Positions 46,009-56,465 of a stretch of 64,000 nucleotides of DNA are shown one piece after another. The stretch spans positions 1 through 64,000 of the forward strand of contig JAAVCL010000002.1 in the NCBI GenBank assembly GCA_014802335.1, read 5' to 3'. Under the pieces are notes generated by a model. The model was not told the DNA's origin. It searched no databases and saw only the letters and a program-made list of their open reading frames with translations. Position numbers and translations under genes: made by a program. Each line of letters opens with the position of its first letter. Position 1 is the first letter of the stretch. This DNA comes from Bacteroides sp. Lineage in GTDB: Bacteria; Bacteroidota; Bacteroidia; Bacteroidales; Muribaculaceae.

Positions 46009-47386
46009 ATGAAACGTCGTTCACGCCACAAGGCAAATACAAATTTCACACTGAAACCGGGCTCAAATGAGGCCGGGCAAACATTTGACGCTCTTTACCC
46101 CACAGCCATTTCCGCTACAGAATCGCCAAACCAAAACGCATCCCAAGATTCAAACCCAACTCGCCCGAATGTAATTTATATCACTGATAATCAACGTATT
46201 ACCCCCCCCCGATAACCACGATTTAAAGTCAAAACACAAGAGTTTTCTCAAGCTTTGTTGCAAGGCAGCCGGCGTTACAGCACTTGCATTTCTCTTATCT
46301 TTTTTATTAAGTTCACCTTTTGCGGCATCAATATCGGCTCTTTTCTCACCGTCAGAAAAGAGCGACTTCAATATGACCGATCTGTTCTTTCAAATTGCAG
46401 ACAATCGCCCTGTACGCACCTTTGAAAACCGTTTCGCCATACTTGACATTGGAAATCTCAACCGCCTTGAAATAGCAGAGTTGCTTGATATGCTGGCTTT
46501 GTGTGAACCTAAAGCCGTGGCTATCGATGTTAATTTTGAAACCGCTACAGAAAACGATTCACTATTACTAAATACCCTGTCGCACCTTCCTGCCCTTGTT
46601 CTCCCGGTTGGAGTGGAGCAGGAAGGCGACAGGTTCCGACTTGTCGACAAGCCCTTCTTCTATGGCAAAATACCCGGAATAGAATATGGAGTTGTGAATT
46701 TTCCCACATCGCATCGGGGCGGAACAGTGAGGGAGTTTGCCCATTCATTTCCGATGTCTGACGGCAAGACACTCCTCTCTTTCCCCGAAGCCGCCGCTAA
46801 AGCCGGCGGTCTTGACCCGGCAATATCCCCGGCATCGGCAGAGGATGTACCGACCGGTATCATCTCATATCATTCGAAAGAAATAACGGTCATCCCTCAC
46901 GACGACTTGGCAGACCGCCTTGAAGAACTCCATGACAAGATTGTGCTTGTAGGCACAACCACCGAAGCCGGCGATATCTACTCCACCCCACTGAGCCGGG
47001 GCGTGTCGGGACTTGAAATCCACGCCTACGCTTTAAGCACTATACTTGACGGCTCTAAATTGAAGAAAATGCCCGTATTCATCGGGAACATCATCGCGAT
47101 TGTCCTCTGCTTCCTGATGGTGCTCGGAGCAATCGGAATCAAGACGGGCATAAAAGGGCTGGTATTAAGGCTCGCACAGATCATATCGCTCTATTTTCTT
47201 GTATGGGGCGGCTACTCGATGCTCGTTGACCATGAGATCGTGGGCGACTTTTCGCAGGCAATTCTAATGGTGGCGTTCGGACTCTTCTCTGCCGATCTTT
47301 GGAACGGAACCGAAGCACTTATAAAATGGATTAAACAGAAATTCAAGAAAAGGCGTGCCGGGACATCACAGCCCTCCAACCAATAA
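46009..47386 (+). CDS. CHASE2-domain membrane sensor, reading frame split at a C9 tract
   Basis: ATG 46009 opens a frame that stops at 46215, directly after a run of nine C (46202-46210). The frame encoding the CHASE2 domain reads through that run as PPPDNHDLKSKHKS and continues without a stop to 47386, but has no ATG before 46373. With eight C the two parts join into a 458-residue protein: a polar N-terminus, a membrane helix (GVTALAFLLSFLLSSPFAAS), an extracytoplasmic CHASE2 domain (FAILDIGNLNRLEIAELLDM; HDKIVLVGTTTEAGDIYSTP) and three C-terminal helices ending in a basic tail. No output domain follows. Using ATG 46373 alone (337 residues) would lose the first helix. Slippage or phase variation is likely; an assembly error is possible. 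Confidence 0.8.
46202..46210 (+). repeat. C9 homopolymer at the CHASE2 frame junction
   Basis: Nine consecutive C residues lie within the coding region. Loss of one C joins the upstream frame (ATG 46009) with the downstream CHASE2 frame; homopolymers of this length are classic sites of slipped-strand change. Confidence 0.8.
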
Positions 47387-47407: not shown

Positions 47408-48256
47408 ATGATACAGAGAATATTATTTACACTTTGTTTAGCAATCGTGAGCTTTACAGCCGGTGCCCACTACACTCTTCACAGCGTGAGTGGCGATGTA
47501 AAAGTGGAAAGCGGAGGGAAGACTGTTTCCGCCGCGAAAGGTATGACCGTCAAGGCCATCGACTACATAATTATTCCCAAAGGGGGGAAGGTAGAGATTC
47601 TGAACGGACTCGACAAACGCATCTATACCTCCATAACCCCGGGAAGAATATCGGTGACACGTCTAATGATCGATGCACGCGGGGCAGCCTCCGACAATGC
47701 GAAGAACGTTGCCTCAAGAATGAACCTCGGGAGAAAATCGCCAAATGACAGTAAGAATGTATACGTGGAGAAAGGAATGGTGCGCCGTTCGCTTGCCGTG
47801 TACGATCCGGAAGGCGAAATGATGGAGATGGATGCCGAGACACTCGGCAAGTATGTGGCGGCAAGGTTGAACGATACAGCCGGGATAGCAACGGACACGT
47901 GTCCTGTGAATCTTACAAGCACCCACCTTCAAGACGGAGGACTCGCCTTCAAGCTGGAGAATACTCTCGGGTTCCCTGTCTATTTCAATGTGCTGAGAGT
48001 AAAGAAAGGAGAAAAGCCGACGGTTGAGATCTCGCAGTTGGGCCAGCCGGCCGGAAGCTATGTAGTGCTTCCGCGTCAGACCATCTCCCGGGAACATTTT
48101 CCCACCCTTGACCCCGCCGAGACTCATCTGGTTGTAATCACCAACTGTCAATATGATGTGGACAAGGTGATAGAAGAGATCACAAAAGCTCTTGAAAACA
48201 AGAATGACCTTGACGGTAGCGCCCGTGACCTGCCTGTATATATCGACTATCTTTAG
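47408..48256 (+). CDS. Secreted FecR-like protein
   Basis: A 282-residue exported protein with signal peptide MIQRILFTLCLAIVSFTAGAH. Residues about 20-75 (LHSVSGDVKVESGGKTVSAAKGMTV...IPKGGKVEIL) have the pattern of a FecR-type beta domain. The C-terminal 120 residues (LAFKLENTLGFPVYFNVLRV; SYVVLPRQTISREHFPTL) form a second beta-rich domain I do not recognise. It starts 21 bp after the CHASE2 gene. FecR-like and CHASE2 proteins are found together elsewhere as extracytoplasmic sensors. Its stop codon overlaps a GTTTAAAC motif copy (48256-48277). Confidence 0.72.
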   Translation: MIQRILFTLCLAIVSFTAGAHYTLHSVSGDVKVESGGKTVSAAKGMTVKAIDYIIIPKGGKVEILNGLDKRIYTSITPGRISVTRLMIDARGAASDNAKNVASRMNLGRKSPNDSKNVYVEKGMVRRSLAVYDPEGEMMEMDAETLGKYVAARLNDTAGIATDTCPVNLTSTHLQDGGLAFKLENTLGFPVYFNVLRVKKGEKPTVEISQLGQPAGSYVVLPRQTISREHFPTLDPAETHLVVITNCQYDVDKVIEEITKALENKNDLDGSARDLPVYIDYL

Positions 48257-48313: not shown

Positions 48314-50494
48314 ATGAATGGCAAACATCTACTCACTGCAATACTGATCGGAGGCACGATAATAGGTGTCCCAACGACCGGATATGCCAAGAAAAAAGAA
48401 AAGACACAACCGGAGCAACAGCAAGAACAAGAGCAGAAGCTGACTTACAAGTTCAAGCGTTATTTCCCAACGGTGTGTATGGATCCATATATAACCACCG
48501 TCTATTCAGCAGATAATTTTGCTGTAATGACAATGAGTGGTGATCCGGTGCACGAAGGTAACGACACTGTGAAGTCACTCAAAGTTAATCCGGCAGGCGT
48601 GAACTACGGTATTATCACAAAGAGCAAGAAAGGCAAGATTGAAGCCGACATATATCACTCGCTAAAAGGGGAAACCGTAAAGGCAAATAATTCGTATAGA
48701 AATAATGTCAAATTCAAGTCGCAACATCTGAACAAATTTGATTCAAAGCGCTACGGCACACCTACTGCCATAGGTTACACGCCTGACGCACGCCTGATAG
48801 TTGTGGCAGCGGAAAGTCCTGTCTTGGGCAAAAACATTTTTTTCCTGGAACCAAAGAATTTTCAGCCCGTATCGAAAATTCAGAGCGTTCCTTTTGAAGT
48901 GGGAAAGATGGTGTTCAGTCCCAACGGCTATTATCTGGCAGCTTCAAACGGCAATAAAATAATAATTTACAATCTTGAAGAGAAAAATATACGCAAGCAG
49001 CTTGATGCCGGTGAGAAAGTGAATGATATGGCTTTCAATCCCGACAACAGCGACTTTGCAGTTCTCACCGACGACGGCCTATTGTCTCTCTACAACACAC
49101 GCACGTTCGAAGTGCGCAAGATGATAGACGAATTGGGCGAGGCACGGGCCATGTCTTATAACCTTGACGGCAAATACATGGCCATAGTAACCGGAGACGA
49201 CATGGTGACATTGGTGAACCTGCTGCGTGAGTCTGACAGAGAAACATTCAATGCAGAAGGTGGTGCCGTGCGCGATGTTGATTTTGTGACCGACGCCGGC
49301 AATAACACCCTGCTTGTGATTCCGGCGGCCGACGCCATGATAGCCCAAAGGCTGCCCCATCTCAAACCTTTTTACAACAAGCTGATAGCGGACGAGGTGG
49401 AAAGAAAGATGGATGAATGGCTCAAGATGATGCCGGGCGAAACTATGGAAGACTACCGGAAACGTGTCACCGAAGAAAGTCGCGCACGCCAGCGCAGACT
49501 CTTTGAAGACGAGATCTCGACTAATTTTGCAGGCGACCTGCTTTCCGGAGCCACCATGAGTCTCGGCACATACGACCGTGCAAACGGTGTTCTTGCTCTC
49601 AATTTCGACTCCATGCCAACAATTTATCTTCCTGTTCCGGAATCTGATGTCACATCCTTCCATAATGCAGGCGACCTGACTCTGAGCGATGTGATGTATG
49701 GCATTCTTCCCGATGACAGCTTTGAAATCGTCTATGCCAAAGTGACCAACAAAACAGACGGCAAGAGCTATATCTATGACAATCTGATGCGCGCCGACCT
49801 GCAATATATGGCGGCCGATGATGCCATAACGCTCGAGATGCTCCAACAGCAGCAAATGGAGGAATTGAAACTTCAGGAACTGCGGCAGAAAGTGGTGGAT
49901 GAAGCAAAGAAAATGAATGTGATTTCAGACCACACACAGATCGCCGTGGACTCAAAGGTGGTGCCAGAGTATGACGCAAACGGCAACAAGATCTTGAATT
50001 ATGTAGTGAGCGTGACTTATACCGTCGATCCTGAATTCTCTGTCACTGAAGATTTCGGACCCGGCAAGTACCATATCAATGAATCCGGAGCTGCCTCTTC
50101 GATGCTTAACATACTCAAACAAGCTTTCGAGGGGGAATTCAACCAGTATCTTGCGCCGGGCAAAAAGATAAAAGTCCGTCTTCTGGGAACAGCCGATGCA
50201 ACTCCCATTGTGCATGGAATCGCATACGACGGTTCATACGGAGAATTTGAAGAGGAACCCGTATACATCGACGGGCGTCTGCAGGCTATCTCGGTGAACA
50301 GTAAAGATGGCATAAAGCAGAATGAACAGCTTGCATTCCTGCGCGCCCTTGGTGTGAAAGACTATCTTAACCGCAACGTGGCGAAATTCGAATCAATGGA
50401 TACCGACTATCGCTACGAAGTTAATGTGAGCAAAGACAAAGGAAGCGAACACCGTCGCATTACTCTTGAATTAACCTTCATTGATGCCTATTAA
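48314..50494 (+). CDS. Exported WD40-repeat protein with central shared domain and OmpA-like C-terminus
   Basis: A 726-residue protein. A signal peptide (LLTAILIGGTIIGVPTTGYAK) and a Gln/Glu-rich linker precede WD40-like blades (residues about 150-340; MVFSPNGYYLAASNGNKIIIYN, MAFNPDNSDFAVLTDDGLLSLYN). Residues about 358-515 (VERKMDEWLKMMPGETMEDYRKRV...GKSYIYDNLMRAD) match in pattern a central region of the caspase protein encoded next. The C-terminal 170 residues include KIKVRLLGTADATP and NEQLAFLRALGVKDYL, reminiscent of an OmpA-type peptidoglycan-binding fold with an insertion. This suggests a periplasmic scaffold attached to the cell wall. Gap to the caspase gene is 15 bp. Confidence 0.78.
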   Translation: MNGKHLLTAILIGGTIIGVPTTGYAKKKEKTQPEQQQEQEQKLTYKFKRYFPTVCMDPYITTVYSADNFAVMTMSGDPVHEGNDTVKSLKVNPAGVNYGIITKSKKGKIEADIYHSLKGETVKANNSYRNNVKFKSQHLNKFDSKRYGTPTAIGYTPDARLIVVAAESPVLGKNIFFLEPKNFQPVSKIQSVPFEVGKMVFSPNGYYLAASNGNKIIIYNLEEKNIRKQLDAGEKVNDMAFNPDNSDFAVLTDDGLLSLYNTRTFEVRKMIDELGEARAMSYNLDGKYMAIVTGDDMVTLVNLLRESDRETFNAEGGAVRDVDFVTDAGNNTLLVIPAADAMIAQRLPHLKPFYNKLIADEVERKMDEWLKMMPGETMEDYRKRVTEESRARQRRLFEDEISTNFAGDLLSGATMSLGTYDRANGVLALNFDSMPTIYLPVPESDVTSFHNAGDLTLSDVMYGILPDDSFEIVYAKVTNKTDGKSYIYDNLMRADLQYMAADDAITLEMLQQQQMEELKLQELRQKVVDEAKKMNVISDHTQIAVDSKVVPEYDANGNKILNYVVSVTYTVDPEFSVTEDFGPGKYHINESGAASSMLNILKQAFEGEFNQYLAPGKKIKVRLLGTADATPIVHGIAYDGSYGEFEEEPVYIDGRLQAISVNSKDGIKQNEQLAFLRALGVKDYLNRNVAKFESMDTDYRYEVNVSKDKGSEHRRITLELTFIDAY

Positions 50495-50509
50495 CCGAGC
50501 ACTTCAATA

Positions 50510-53119
50510 ATGAAAAGAAAGATAAGAAATTTATCCTTTATCGGGGTAATCCTTCTGTCGGCGATAGTGATGCCGAGGGTGGTTGCCTCCTCGGGAGCAC
50601 AGGAGCCGGCTATGGAAGCCACCGAGAATTCAGACGGCGCGCTTAACACTGATTCCATAGAAATCGCAGAGACCGCCCGATTGGTCGAGGAAGCCACCTC
50701 GGTATATAAGAACCTTAAATTTATTCAATACGACGGAGTTACGGAGGCGGAACTTTATCCGGCTGTAATGAATGTCTATGGGAAAGTGCGTGCAGCAATG
50801 CAGGCACCACGCATAAGCGCAGAGGATAAGAAAAGATTCAAGGGAATATTGCTGGATGTCAGCGATCTCTTGAAACGTGGATCCATGTATTACTCTAATC
50901 AGGGTGCGTCGCAGGATATGACGCTCTTCTCTACAGCCTATGTCGACACACGTCTCGACCCGGAGATGAGCGATATGAACTTCGGGACCGACACCGACTT
51001 GTATCCGGCACTGATTTATTGCGCGGCCTCGGGAGCATACAATAATGGTGATTTCGAAAAGGCGGCCGATTATCTGGAAGCTTACCTCAACACCGGTGCG
51101 AACGACCGGAGGGAGCAGGTGAGTCTCTTCTTCGGCCAGGCATGCCTCAACGCCAAATGTCCTGAACGAGCTGTGGATAAGCTCATTGCAGCAGTTGACA
51201 AGTATCCGGCAAATTTCAATATTCTGATGATTGCGCTTCAGAATTGCCTTGAAGCCGGCCAGACCGACAGGATGCAGCCCCTTCTCGACAAGGCGTTGAT
51301 GATGAGGCCCAACGACGAGCAGCTTCTCACCGCGCAGGCACGTCTGTTCGAGAATAACGGTAATTATTCCTCTGCAATCGACCTCTATCAGAAACTCTAC
51401 GAAATGAAGCCCAACAGCCTGCAGATTAACCAGCATATTGCACTGTGCTACTATAATCTTGGAGCCGACTACTATAATAGAGCCTTGATGGAGAAAGAAG
51501 ATAAGGTCTCCAAGCGCTATTCACGCCAGTCGCAGGCTTATTTCATGAGTGCTTTAGGCAATCTTGCGACAGTGGTCGAGAATGACCCGACGAACACCAA
51601 ATATCTTCGTGCACTTGCCGTAACCTACGGGTGTCTCGGCAACAAGACCAAGCTTGACGAAATAAATGTAAGGCTTCAGGCATTGGGAATGAACCCCATG
51701 CCAATGAACGGCATGCCGGAGTCAATCGCATTTAACGATCAGACGGCTAAAAGCAGTAATTCCGGAAGCTATGTACCCGATTTTCAAGAATTTGCCCGCG
51801 GATATGTGGAAAATGAACTGGCAGCATGGACCAAACGCGGTGAATTCGAGAAAATCGAGGACTTCGAAAAGCGTGTGAACCAAAACAATGTTTACCGGAA
51901 ATATCAGGAACTCTGCAAAAAGGCAGAAGCTGATTATTTGCAGAAATATGCAGGCCGTTTGAGAATTTCCGATTTGTCGCTGCAACCGTATGATGTTGAC
52001 AATGAAAGTTACATGATAACTTCCGCGATGGGTCCGATTGTGGTCAAAGTGCCTCTTAAGAACAAAGAAGCTGAAACTTTCAAGTCATCATGGAACACCA
52101 TCCAGCTTCGCAACCCGAAGTATTTCATAAAAGACAACCACGTAGCAATAGCCTCGGTAGAGCTTGTCACCTCGGCCGGAAAGAGCTATCGGTATGATTC
52201 CGACAGGGCTGCCGATTATGATTTCACTGACGTAACAATTGACATGCAGTCATTCCTTGCACAAGGGAATTCAAGGCGCGATCGAGCTGAAAACACATCC
52301 ACGGGATCGGGTACTCCTAAAGTGATACGAGCCAAGAGTGATGTAGATGAGAATATCCCGGTGACAAGTCGCAAAGCTGAAAAAACCGTGGCACTGATCA
52401 TCGCGAACGAGAATTACAAACAAGTGACAGATGTTGAATCGGCCCTGAACGACGGCGAAACCTTTGCAAAATACTGCCGGATGACCTTGGGTGTTCCTGA
52501 GAGTCAGATCATGAACTATGAAAACGTGACGTATGCAGAGATGCTGGGCGCCGTCCAGAAGCTGCGTCAATTTGTCGGTGCGCTTGGCGACGGTGTGGAC
52601 ATTATAGTTTATTATGCCGGTCACGGCTTCCCTGACGAAGGGAACAAGGATGCCTATCTGTTGCCGGTGGACGGCGACGGTTTCACCACCGTGACTTCCT
52701 ATCCGCTCAAGAAACTGTATTCAGACCTTTCATCAACCGGAGCAGACAATGTGATGGTATTCCTTGATGCTTGCTTCAGCGGAGCAACCCGCGACGGGGG
52801 TATGCTTGCGGAAGCTCGAGGCGTTGCCTTAAAACCCCGTGTGGCTGAGCCGGAGGGCAATATGTTTGTACTCAGTGCCGCGAGCGATCAGGAGACAGCG
52901 CTCCCCTATAAAGAGAAGAATCACGGTCTTTTCACCTATTATATCCTTAAGAAGATTCAGGATTCGAAAGGCAACGTGACTCTAAAGGATCTGAGCAAGT
53001 ATGTGGAGGAAAATGTAAAGAAAAATTCTCTTACTGTAAACCGCAAACTGCAGACCCCACGCACAAGTGTTTCGGGCAAGATGCGCGATATATGGGAAAA
53101 CAAGCGACTTCGACAGTAA
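50510..53119 (+). CDS. Exported TPR protein with C-terminal caspase-like (C14) protease domain
   Basis: An 869-residue protein. The N-terminal hydrophobic segment (LSFIGVILLSAIVMPRVVAS) acts as signal or anchor. TPR-like helices run to about residue 390 (FEKAADYLEAYLNTGA; YSSAIDLYQKLYEMKPNSLQIN). Residues 430-590 hold the domain shared with the WD40 protein (YVENELAAWTKRGEFEKIED...GKSYRYDSDRAAD). Residues 620-860 are a caspase/metacaspase domain with VALIIANENYK, the catalytic His705 in IIVYYAGHGF and Cys755 in VFLDACFSG. Both catalytic residues are intact, so it is probably an active Arg/Lys- or Asp-directed endopeptidase facing the periplasm or outside. Central gene of the locus. Confidence 0.88.
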   Translation: MKRKIRNLSFIGVILLSAIVMPRVVASSGAQEPAMEATENSDGALNTDSIEIAETARLVEEATSVYKNLKFIQYDGVTEAELYPAVMNVYGKVRAAMQAPRISAEDKKRFKGILLDVSDLLKRGSMYYSNQGASQDMTLFSTAYVDTRLDPEMSDMNFGTDTDLYPALIYCAASGAYNNGDFEKAADYLEAYLNTGANDRREQVSLFFGQACLNAKCPERAVDKLIAAVDKYPANFNILMIALQNCLEAGQTDRMQPLLDKALMMRPNDEQLLTAQARLFENNGNYSSAIDLYQKLYEMKPNSLQINQHIALCYYNLGADYYNRALMEKEDKVSKRYSRQSQAYFMSALGNLATVVENDPTNTKYLRALAVTYGCLGNKTKLDEINVRLQALGMNPMPMNGMPESIAFNDQTAKSSNSGSYVPDFQEFARGYVENELAAWTKRGEFEKIEDFEKRVNQNNVYRKYQELCKKAEADYLQKYAGRLRISDLSLQPYDVDNESYMITSAMGPIVVKVPLKNKEAETFKSSWNTIQLRNPKYFIKDNHVAIASVELVTSAGKSYRYDSDRAADYDFTDVTIDMQSFLAQGNSRRDRAENTSTGSGTPKVIRAKSDVDENIPVTSRKAEKTVALIIANENYKQVTDVESALNDGETFAKYCRMTLGVPESQIMNYENVTYAEMLGAVQKLRQFVGALGDGVDIIVYYAGHGFPDEGNKDAYLLPVDGDGFTTVTSYPLKKLYSDLSSTGADNVMVFLDACFSGATRDGGMLAEARGVALKPRVAEPEGNMFVLSAASDQETALPYKEKNHGLFTYYILKKIQDSKGNVTLKDLSKYVEENVKKNSLTVNRKLQTPRTSVSGKMRDIWENKRLRQ

Positions 53120-53139
53120 CAATCCAAGAAAAGAGAGAC

Positions 53140-54009
53140 ATGAAACGACTGCTGCTATTTATGGCTTTTCTGCCCGCCATGCTCGGTGTGGCCTCCGACA
53201 TTGTCACAGTGTCGGGTGAGTCTACATATTATGATGACGGCACAAAATCGAAAGTAGAATGCATGAGGCTCGCCTCCGAACAGGCAAGGATAGATGCCCT
53301 TGCAAAAAAATTCGGAACTATTGTGGCGCAGGATATTCTTCAGGCAGACCGCATAAAAGGCAACCGCGAACAAAATGATTTCCTGGCCCTATCCTCAACC
53401 GAGGTGAGAGGGGAATGGGTGGCCGATGACGGCGAACCTGAATATGAATTCTCTCACGACTCGAAGTCCAACCTTATAGTTCATTGCAAAGTAAAAGGCA
53501 AGGCTAAGGAAATTTCAAATGAGTCACCGGCTTTTGAGGCGAGTGTACTCAGGAATGGCACCGACACGCGCAATGCCGACAATCTGTTCCGCGACGGTGA
53601 TGATATGTATTTGCACTTCAGGGGTTCTGCCGACGGATTTCTCTCCGTGTTTCTCGAGGATGAGACCGGGAATGTATATCTACTGCTCCCCTACCCTCGT
53701 GATTCAAAGACTCGTGTTGCGGTGAAGCGCGACCATGATTATGTGTTCTTCAGTCCGGATCACGAAATTAAGGCAGGAGGTAACGGTTCCGTTGTTGAGG
53801 AATTGATACTGACAGCTCCCGATAATGCGGAATACAACCGCGTGTATGTTGTGTTTTCTCCCGAGAGTTTTTCACGCCCCGTAATGGACACCGGAAGCGG
53901 ACTGCCGATGATGAAAAGCGGGGAATTCAACAAATGGCTTTTAAAGGCCCGACGCAATGATAGCAAAATGGGTGTGAAAGCCATGAATATCATGATATCG
54001 CCTCGTTGA
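53140..54009 (+). CDS. Exported DUF4384-domain protein
   Basis: A 289-residue protein. ATG 53140 (MKRLLLFMAFLPAMLGVAS) gives a clear signal peptide and is preceded by AAGAGAGAC, whereas the ORF-track start lies inside the caspase gene. The N-terminal part (CMRLASEQARIDALAKKFGTI) resembles the helical motif of LPP20-like domains. The C-terminal part (DGDDMYLHFRGSADGFLSVF; YLLLPYP; VVFSPESF) is a DUF4384 domain. DUF4384 domains are often fused to or neighbours of caspase-like proteases, which fits the context. Follows the caspase gene by 20 bp. Confidence 0.8.
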   Translation: MKRLLLFMAFLPAMLGVASDIVTVSGESTYYDDGTKSKVECMRLASEQARIDALAKKFGTIVAQDILQADRIKGNREQNDFLALSSTEVRGEWVADDGEPEYEFSHDSKSNLIVHCKVKGKAKEISNESPAFEASVLRNGTDTRNADNLFRDGDDMYLHFRGSADGFLSVFLEDETGNVYLLLPYPRDSKTRVAVKRDHDYVFFSPDHEIKAGGNGSVVEELILTAPDNAEYNRVYVVFSPESFSRPVMDTGSGLPMMKSGEFNKWLLKARRNDSKMGVKAMNIMISPR

Positions 54010-54157: not shown

Positions 54158-54784
54158 ATGAAAAGAATCATTTTATGCCTTATTGCAGCCATGCTCCTGC
54201 TTCCCGGCTATTCGGAAGCAGCCAACAAACAGCTTGAAAAAGCCCGCAAGAAAGAGTTGAACCAGAAGCTCAAGGAGTATAAGAAAGGCAAATGGGAAAT
54301 CATGGGCAGCCACACCCTTGACTTTGCCCTTGCAAAACATTTCGACAGGCTCAACACTCTTGGCGATGACGCGCATGAAGTTGAAGGAATATCAACCAAG
54401 ACAAAATCGAAGAATACAGGAAAGCAGGCGGCCATAAACAACGCAGTGGTGACTTACGCTCAGGAAGCGGGAAGCACTCTTCAGGGACGTGTAGTGAGCG
54501 ACATGAATGCCAACGGAGCTGATCCCTCGGGAGAGTTCGATAATTTCTATGCCGCTTACGAGCGTTTGGTTGAAAAGGAAATCAGAGGCGAGATGGAGCC
54601 ATCATACTCAATTATCCGCACCAACCCCGATGGAACCTATGAAATCCGCACATATTTCATCATTACCGAAAGCGCTGCCAGCAAAGCGAGAATGCGTGCC
54701 CTTGAGGAAGCCCTCAAGAACTCTGAAGCCGCTCAGAAATATGGCGCGAAGATCACCGAGTTTGTAAAACAAGGATTTGAATAA
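54158..54784 (+). CDS. Small exported protein, LPP20-like, function unknown
   Basis: A 208-residue protein with signal peptide ending YSEAANK. A Lys-rich amphipathic helix (QLEKARKKELNQKLKEYKKG) is followed by GKQAAINNAVVTYAQEAGST and a C-terminal region YEIRTYFIITESAASKARMRALEEAL. The order resembles LPP20-type proteins of Bacteroidetes, also hinted at in the DUF4384 protein before it. No catalytic motif is visible. Probably in the locus by orientation and shared architecture. Confidence 0.7.
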   Translation: MKRIILCLIAAMLLLPGYSEAANKQLEKARKKELNQKLKEYKKGKWEIMGSHTLDFALAKHFDRLNTLGDDAHEVEGISTKTKSKNTGKQAAINNAVVTYAQEAGSTLQGRVVSDMNANGADPSGEFDNFYAAYERLVEKEIRGEMEPSYSIIRTNPDGTYEIRTYFIITESAASKARMRALEEALKNSEAAQKYGAKITEFVKQGFE

Positions 54785-54959: not shown

Positions 54960-56465
54960 ATGAAAAACAGAGGTAAGGTTTTGGCTATGCTTATGGCTAT
55001 TCTAACAATTACTGCTCCCTCAGCCCAAAGCCGGGACAGGAAGTCGTTTGAGGAATTTCGGAATGGGATTCTGAACAGCTATTCTGATTTCAGGAAGACT
55101 ATCCTTGACAACTATGCGGATTTTCTTAACGGAGAATGGCACGAATATGAAAGCCTCAACGGAGAACGTCGCGACCGCACGCCCAAACCTTCGCAGGTGC
55201 CTACATTCAAACCCGAGACACCCGCAAAGCCCAATCCTGCACCCCCTCTGCCGGCAAAGTCAAAACCGGCAACTGCCGTTCCGGTCAAGCCCGAGCCTGC
55301 GAAATCAGAACCTATTGTTCATTCTCAACCCAAACACCGCACTCCCCAATCCGCCCAAGAAGATTTTGATTTCTTCGGGTTGCCGGTCTCACTCCCCGGA
55401 ATTGAATATAACATTGCCTACCGCCTTTCCTCCACAACCGACTATGCATCACAATGGAAGGACCTTGACCGTTCGGGAGTTGCAAAGGCCCTTCTGCCGG
55501 CCATAAAAGAGAAAGCGAATGAAATGGGGCTGAATGACTATCTTGTATATGAATTTATAAAGGCCTATGTAACTTCAAAGTTTCCACAGGCAGATGTGAG
55601 TTCACGTTTTTCGGCCATGCACTACCTGCTCGCCAACTTAGGATACGATGCACGCATAGCAGTGAGCGGCACCGGAACTCCCCTGCTGTTGCTACCCTTC
55701 AAGCAGACAATTTATGCACGGAACTATATGATGATGGCCGATGGGAAATACTATGTGTTCGCACCCGACGACTATGACTATTCACTTCTTGGCCGGGAAC
55801 GGTTAAGAACCTGTACTCTTCCAAAGGATGCCGACAAAGGAGAAAAGTTCGACCTTGTACTCGGCCAACTGAATATACCTGTGAAACCGAAGAGCTTTGA
55901 ACTCGAATACGGGCCGTTGAAACTAACCGGGGAAGTAAACGAAAACCTTATGCCCATTCTTTACCACTATCCACAGATGCCGATAGCTGATTATGCCATT
56001 TCGCAGCCTGATCCTGAACTACGGCGCAAACTCGTGGAGCAGATGAAAGCCCAGATCGGTAATATGGAAGGAGACGAAGCTGTGGAACAGTTGCTGAGTT
56101 TCATGCACCATGTGTTTGAATATGCCACCGACGAGGAATTCCACGGCTTTGAAAAGCCATATTTTATTGAAGAGACACTCTACTATCCTAAAAATGACTG
56201 TGAAGATCGGGCGATATTCTATACTTACTTCCTTTGGAACGCACTTGGCAAGGAAGCACAGTTGATAACATTCCCGGGGCATGAGGCTGCCACTGTCCGA
56301 CTTGACAATCCGGTGGAAGGCACGTCCTATGATTTTTCAGGAAAGACTTTTTATATATCAGACCCGACATATATCGGTTCGCACACTGGCATGTTAATGC
56401 CGATATACAAAAACAACGAGCCGAAAGTGGACTATACCTTCACCCATAAATCTTCACGACGCTGA
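54960..56465 (+). CDS. Exported transglutaminase-fold protein with complete catalytic triad
   Basis: A 501-residue protein with a signal peptide (VLAMLMAILTITAPSAQS). Residues 25-60 form an amphipathic segment (FRNGILNSYSDFRKTILDNY), and residues 75-125 a Pro/Lys linker with PAKSKPAT-type repeats typical of a wall-spanning stalk. The C-terminal half is a transglutaminase-like papain fold: Cys414 in PKNDCEDRAIFYTYFLW, His441 in TFPGHEAATV and Asp468 in FYISDPTYIG. The fold may act as a protease or cross-link/cleave peptides in the envelope. It is not separated from the caspase locus by a strong terminator; membership is inference. Confidence 0.82.
   Translation: MKNRGKVLAMLMAILTITAPSAQSRDRKSFEEFRNGILNSYSDFRKTILDNYADFLNGEWHEYESLNGERRDRTPKPSQVPTFKPETPAKPNPAPPLPAKSKPATAVPVKPEPAKSEPIVHSQPKHRTPQSAQEDFDFFGLPVSLPGIEYNIAYRLSSTTDYASQWKDLDRSGVAKALLPAIKEKANEMGLNDYLVYEFIKAYVTSKFPQADVSSRFSAMHYLLANLGYDARIAVSGTGTPLLLLPFKQTIYARNYMMMADGKYYVFAPDDYDYSLLGRERLRTCTLPKDADKGEKFDLVLGQLNIPVKPKSFELEYGPLKLTGEVNENLMPILYHYPQMPIADYAISQPDPELRRKLVEQMKAQIGNMEGDEAVEQLLSFMHHVFEYATDEEFHGFEKPYFIEETLYYPKNDCEDRAIFYTYFLWNALGKEAQLITFPGHEAATVRLDNPVEGTSYDFSGKTFYISDPTYIGSHTGMLMPIYKNNEPKVDYTFTHKSSRR

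Follow-up and report, generated by a model that had tools for sequence, protein, structure and literature searches.

An unnamed domain shared by a WD40 protein and a caspase encoded side by side in Bacteroidales

Two adjacent genes in the window (the whole stretch of 64,000 nucleotides analysed here) encode proteins of different architecture that carry one and the same homologous domain, hereafter the core, at residues ~350–498 of a WD40 protein and ~422–573 of a caspase protein. Beyond this locus, the core recurs as a module dispersed among Bacteroidales caspases, with variable N-terminal repeats (TPR, BspA-type LRR or WD40) on one side of it and an exported caspase on the other.

The first gene (positions 48314–50494, on the forward strand, as are all features described here) encodes a 726-residue WD40 protein that consists of a signal peptide, a propeller (residues ~45–344), the first core (residues 347–515 as modelled; 49352–49858) and an OmpA-like C-terminal domain (residues 520–726; 49871–50491). 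The second gene (50510–53119) starts 15 nt past the first and encodes an 869-residue protein with a signal peptide, a TPR region (residues ~45–400; 50642–51709; Pfam TPR_14, 2.2e-9), the second core (residues 417–592 as modelled; 51758–52285) and a caspase (Peptidase_C14) domain (residues 626–853; 52385–53068; Pfam, 4.9e-21). The two copies thus have different flanking domains, as the initial annotation had described: propeller and OmpA-like domain for one, TPR and caspase for the other.

A domain common to the two proteins

The homology was recovered by several comparisons of the two proteins and their relatives. BLASTP of the full proteins aligned residues 352–498 with 423–572 (24% identity over 153 aa, E = 3e-4), the Smith–Waterman score was 85, whereas 2,000 shuffles averaged 31 (sd 5) and peaked at 61 (z ~10), and phmmer with the WD40 core as query found caspase homologues with E values down to 4e-10. 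Profile–profile comparison, the check that the initial annotation had proposed, aligned 21 homologues of each core by hhalign at 98.9% probability (E = 1.8e-17, 144 columns); control comparisons of the core profiles with propeller, OmpA-like, TPR and caspase profiles all gave a probability of 1% or less.

All five motif blocks named in the initial annotation were found in both proteins in the order it gave. Listing the WD40 protein before the caspase protein, these are the V-E..W block (VERKMDEW, 362–369; VENELAAW, 433–440), the E-D-[YF]-x-K-R-V block (EDYRKRV, 379–385; EDFEKRV, 450–456), a YD box (420; 494), an [IV]-x-[VL]-P box (IYLP, 437–440; VKVP, 512–515) and a final block (GKSYIYDNLMRAD, 483–495; GKSYRYDSDRAAD, 557–569). 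The residue ranges first proposed (about 358–515 and 430–590) were near the mark, with the bounds ~350–498 and ~422–573 differing slightly from them. Across 32 diverse cores, the sole invariant residues were the E and R of E-x(7)-R; W, Y, VP, G and Y-x-Y were near-invariant, and the VE, AD and KS positions were loose across the wider relatives. Mean column identity was 63% and 48% in the two core alignments.

The domain had been reported as nameless, and it is covered by no Pfam or NCBIfam family; scans of Pfam, NCBIfam and PADLOC returned no model covering the core, and sequence searches of the PDB with the core gave no meaningful match. The KTSC domain (PF13619), a short domain with no tie to caspases, was considered and rejected, its likeness to the core amounting to weak matches in 5 of the 32 cores (best 8e-5) and none in 10 single scans.

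AlphaFold models were built from two alignments with no sequence in common (67 rows for the WD40 cores and 70 for the caspase cores). The resulting models had a pLDDT of 86.3 and a pTM of 0.75 for the WD40 core (residues 347–515), and a pLDDT of 90.7 and a pTM of 0.80 for the caspase core (residues 417–592). In both, the elements follow the same order: three helices lead into a beta-hairpin region, after which come a short helix and three strands. The core is predicted to be a domain of ~150 residues in which three helices precede a beta-rich half. Comparing the predicted secondary structures through the profile alignment, the two models agreed at 83% of positions in three states when in register and at 42–54% when the register was slid. 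Foldseek searches of the PDB with the core models had best E values of 0.048 and 0.11, none at or below the threshold of 0.001, and query-normalised TM-scores of at most 0.25 among the matches listed, and a Foldseek search of viral models gave no match for the core. The predicted fold is therefore unmatched in the PDB and viral model libraries searched.

Distribution of the core and pairing of the two genes

Homologues were taken from 119 genomes of the same family and from 80 public loci, the latter fetched with the WD40 core. As sampling partly started from the WD40/caspase pair, and half of the set was fetched with the WD40 core, the shares that follow are biased frequencies. Among 259 core proteins and fragments, we counted 101 with the WD40–core–OmpA-like architecture, 95 TPR–core–caspases, 39 core–caspases with other N termini, 8 WD40–core proteins, 2 WD40–core–caspases and 14 others or fragments. 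A caspase domain lies in the same chain in 136 of the 259, and 104 are WD40–core–OmpA-like proteins or pieces of them. The 35 carriers outside the pair (caspases and WD40–core proteins) include 10 with LRR_5 (BspA-type) and 9 with WD40 repeats. By eye, WG-type repeats were also seen (L058–L061 and L066), and two single proteins unite a propeller with the core and a caspase-like domain (L206:2-1627 and L208:3244-5493), the one in L208 without the catalytic motifs.

The core was found in 36 of 247 genomes drawn from the order Bacteroidales and in 10 of 396 genomes of the phylum, including the window's own, the other nine having mostly short partial matches. Five proteins of 234–266 aa from other Bacteroidota families (L230, L232, L233, L235 and L236) match the first half of the core only. 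The initial annotation had asked whether the domain is always found beside caspases, and for the most part it is. No caspase was seen within the stretch read for WD40–core proteins that lack the OmpA-like part (460–540 aa) or for a few further core proteins.

The pairing of the two genes is close to perfect. A WD40–core–OmpA-like gene is followed by a TPR–caspase gene in 100 of the 101 cases with downstream sequence (the exception being L129), including three in which a contig end cuts the caspase gene and the TPR part alone is seen. Conversely, a WD40 gene lies directly 5′ of the TPR–core–caspase gene in all 94 cases with upstream sequence, at a median gap of 29 nt. The counts do not represent independent events: a large number of the loci are related, and some genomes were fetched twice. 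The core is missing from four partner caspases. In two (L069 and L135) it is absent without replacement, and in the other two, from two other families of the order (L195:5678-8443 and L196:4774-7554), a region of ~300 aa stands in its place in the TPR–caspase; this region looks Ig/CARDB-like by eye.

The rest of the operon varies. In Muribaculaceae relatives it includes genes for CHASE2, FecR-like, DUF4384, 208-aa and 501-aa proteins. In the window, a gene for a sensor-type CHASE2 membrane protein (46012–47386; Pfam CHASE2, 5.2e-21, and frame analysis) and one for an exported protein that is FecR-like by eye (47408–48256; no Pfam match above threshold; same place conserved in many relatives) precede the pair. 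Downstream are three conserved operon members encoding exported proteins: a DUF4384-containing protein (53092–54009; Pfam, 2.9e-5, under the cut-off; a neighbour in relatives), a 208-aa protein with no family assigned (54158–54784) and a 501-aa protein (54960–56465) that is possibly transglutaminase-like, the weak match to Transglut_core (0.025) being confined to a relative. One locus (L049) has genes for carboxypeptidase-regulatory-like and outer-membrane-barrel proteins downstream of the pair. A plasmid search gave no match. In the window's CHASE2 gene, a run of nine C (46202–46210) interrupts the reading frame and leaves its first part and its membrane/CHASE2 part in different frames, the listed open frame beginning at 46373. 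Several relatives (L033/L073, L037/L108, L044/L132, L075, L076, L079 and L085) have runs of 7–10 C at about this location, and the CHASE2 genes of other relatives have no C run and read without interruption. The run possibly reflects phase variation or an assembly error.

An exported caspase and a putative wall-anchored partner

The propeller of the WD40 protein is recognized by ANAPC4_WD40 (27.3 bits; cut-off 22.9) and by many other propeller models, and its score against the single-repeat model PF00400 is below the cut-off. Its C terminus resembles the OmpA-like domain (PF00691) in ending with the G-x-(T/A)-D and N-x-x-L-(S/A)-x-x-R-A signature, conserved here as G-x-A-D and N-x-x-L-A-x-x-R-A and found by a strict pattern in 81 of 104 proteins. 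It differs in having a long insert between the two motifs and in the weakness of the Pfam match: 6 of 24 homologues have weak matches (best E 0.0054), and the window's WD40 protein has none. In the 24 OmpA-like homologues, D116 and R165 (alignment A6) are invariant; in the WD40 protein these are Asp628 and Arg677, at the positions of the peptidoglycan-binding residues of OmpA-type domains, the Asp and Arg that we take to be the ones binding diaminopimelate. These residues suggest that the WD40 protein is probably anchored to the wall through its OmpA-like domain. Two relatives have irregular WD40 genes. In one (L034:5531-7601) the gene lies in two open frames (266 and 394 aa), from a broken gene or an assembly error, and in the other (L082:2840-5076) the complete gene is preceded by a truncated second copy of it (356 aa) and by another FecR-like fragment, a partial tandem duplication.

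The caspase protein scores 75.9 bits against Peptidase_C14 (PF00656; cut-off 21.4) and has an intact catalytic dyad, His705 (YYAGHG) and Cys755 (DACFSG). Both catalytic motifs are kept in 123 of 136 core-bearing caspases; of the other 13, several are incomplete or may fail only a strict pattern. Judged by a crude hydrophobicity count, most core proteins (229 of 252) have a signal-like hydrophobic stretch at the N terminus.

Bacterial caspases are usually viewed as cytoplasmic defence or cell-death proteases. According to passages of an earlier study, prokaryotic caspases with WD40, TPR or Sel1 repeats are already known (Asplund-Samuelsson 2012, PMC3501461); the metacaspases and orthocaspases described there resemble the window's protein in fusing a Peptidase_C14 His–Cys dyad to protein–protein interaction repeats, and some have N-terminal helices that may be signal peptides. 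Those passages mention neither a domain separating the repeats from the caspase nor a WD40 gene as an obligate partner, unlike what we find here. Bacterial caspases linked to adaptors are also on record from conflict systems (PMC8195603), where the EACC1/EAD caspases are similar in that a caspase effector is recruited by a small constant adaptor with variable partners. The proteins studied here differ from these in looking exported and carrying the unnamed core, and the window's caspase is not EACC1-associated (NF047832, caspase_w_EACC1, 70.2 bits; cut-off 140). The enzyme class and its repeats were known already, and the present system stands out by the unnamed connecting domain, the exported setting and the near-obligate WD40 partner; neither the domain nor the gene pair is described in the open-licence literature searched.

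Sequence features lead us to give roughly even chances to an envelope-side protease complex, made up of a probably wall-anchored WD40 scaffold and a repeat–core–caspase, in which the core is an adaptor or switch. The core would join a variable N-terminal repeat sensor to a C-terminal effector, mostly a caspase, in exported Bacteroidales proteins, and the architecture suggests a sequence of steps, from sensing or binding by the repeats through transmission or docking by the core to cleavage by the caspase, with binding by the repeats controlling the caspase through the core. The WD40 protein would act as a hub on the cell wall, held there by its OmpA-like domain, docking the caspase at its side in the periplasm, outside the cytoplasm, and regulating it. 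In most lineages the two cores may also touch or share a binding partner, and the complex may serve in envelope stress or self-limitation. The homology, the predicted element order, the gene pairing, the export-type N termini and the intact dyad support this reading; the four partners without a core, the many core–caspases without a WD40 neighbour and the weak OmpA-like assignment weaken it.

The initial annotation had also proposed physical pairing, which is plausible and in part backed by the near-perfect adjacency of the two genes and a small core-specific correlation. The residual evolutionary-distance correlation between caspase core and WD40 core was 0.21 (p = 0.0005), with none between the caspase core and the propeller or OmpA-like domain, a small hint that the cores may meet. 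Since four partner caspases have no core, core–core contact cannot be obligatory, and since the TPR region showed distance correlation with all domains of the WD40 protein, contact through the TPR is at least as likely as contact through the core.

A common ligand rather than core contact may unite both proteins, with each using its core independently to bind, for example, an envelope glycan, lipid or peptide. The core is kept in carriers without a partner, WD40–core proteins without a nearby caspase exist, and coreless partner caspases still adjoin core-bearing WD40 proteins, all of which would suit such a role. However, the core matches no known ligand-binding family or fold, and its conserved residues look mostly structural (W, Y, G and VP) with one invariant E and R only, and we consider this account possible but distinctly less probable than an envelope protease complex. 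It is improbable that the core, placed between repeats and effector, is a passive spacer or folding unit without a regulatory role: its position between the two, its clean loss in L135 and L069 and the different region found in the same place in L195 and L196 would be expected of a spacer, but the core is strongly conserved with invariant residues, and in WD40–core proteins it is the C-terminal end, with nothing there to space.

The envelope-complex reading can be taken further, to a core that is a new fold and the homotypic adaptor of an exported caspase network with exchangeable repeat sensors and a wall-anchored WD40–core hub, a proposal that we regard as doubtful. If true, this network would be a bacterial envelope counterpart, in logic and not in descent, of the adaptors that recruit animal caspases. 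More broadly, a large set of Bacteroidales caspases looks exported, keeps its dyad and has varied sensor repeats joined through one unnamed domain, and naming the core would offer a way into the study of gut-bacterial caspases as a class, and of how they are switched.

Origin of the two copies

A further proposal of the initial annotation, a duplication inside the locus as the source of both cores, did not hold up in the form stated. In a tree of cores, the WD40 copies formed one clade (100/99) and the TPR–caspase copies another (99/81), the latter grouping at 99/96 with 17 caspases of other architecture, which lack a WD40 neighbour, and apart from the WD40 copies. We dropped a reading of this tree as rejecting duplication outright after an AU test did not reject a tree joining the WD40 and TPR–caspase copies (p = 0.32), a result that leaves room for the two groups being sisters. 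That result, the adjacency of the genes and the reality of the homology are in favour of a duplication inside this locus; it is nevertheless very unlikely given the core tree, the stronger caspase A–B profile match (E ~1e-39, versus ~1e-17 to the WD40 core), and the deep relatives L195 and L196, which carry the core in the WD40 protein only. In a quick and weakly supported tree of the caspase domain the architectures were mixed, a pattern that would fit an exchange of core–caspase units.
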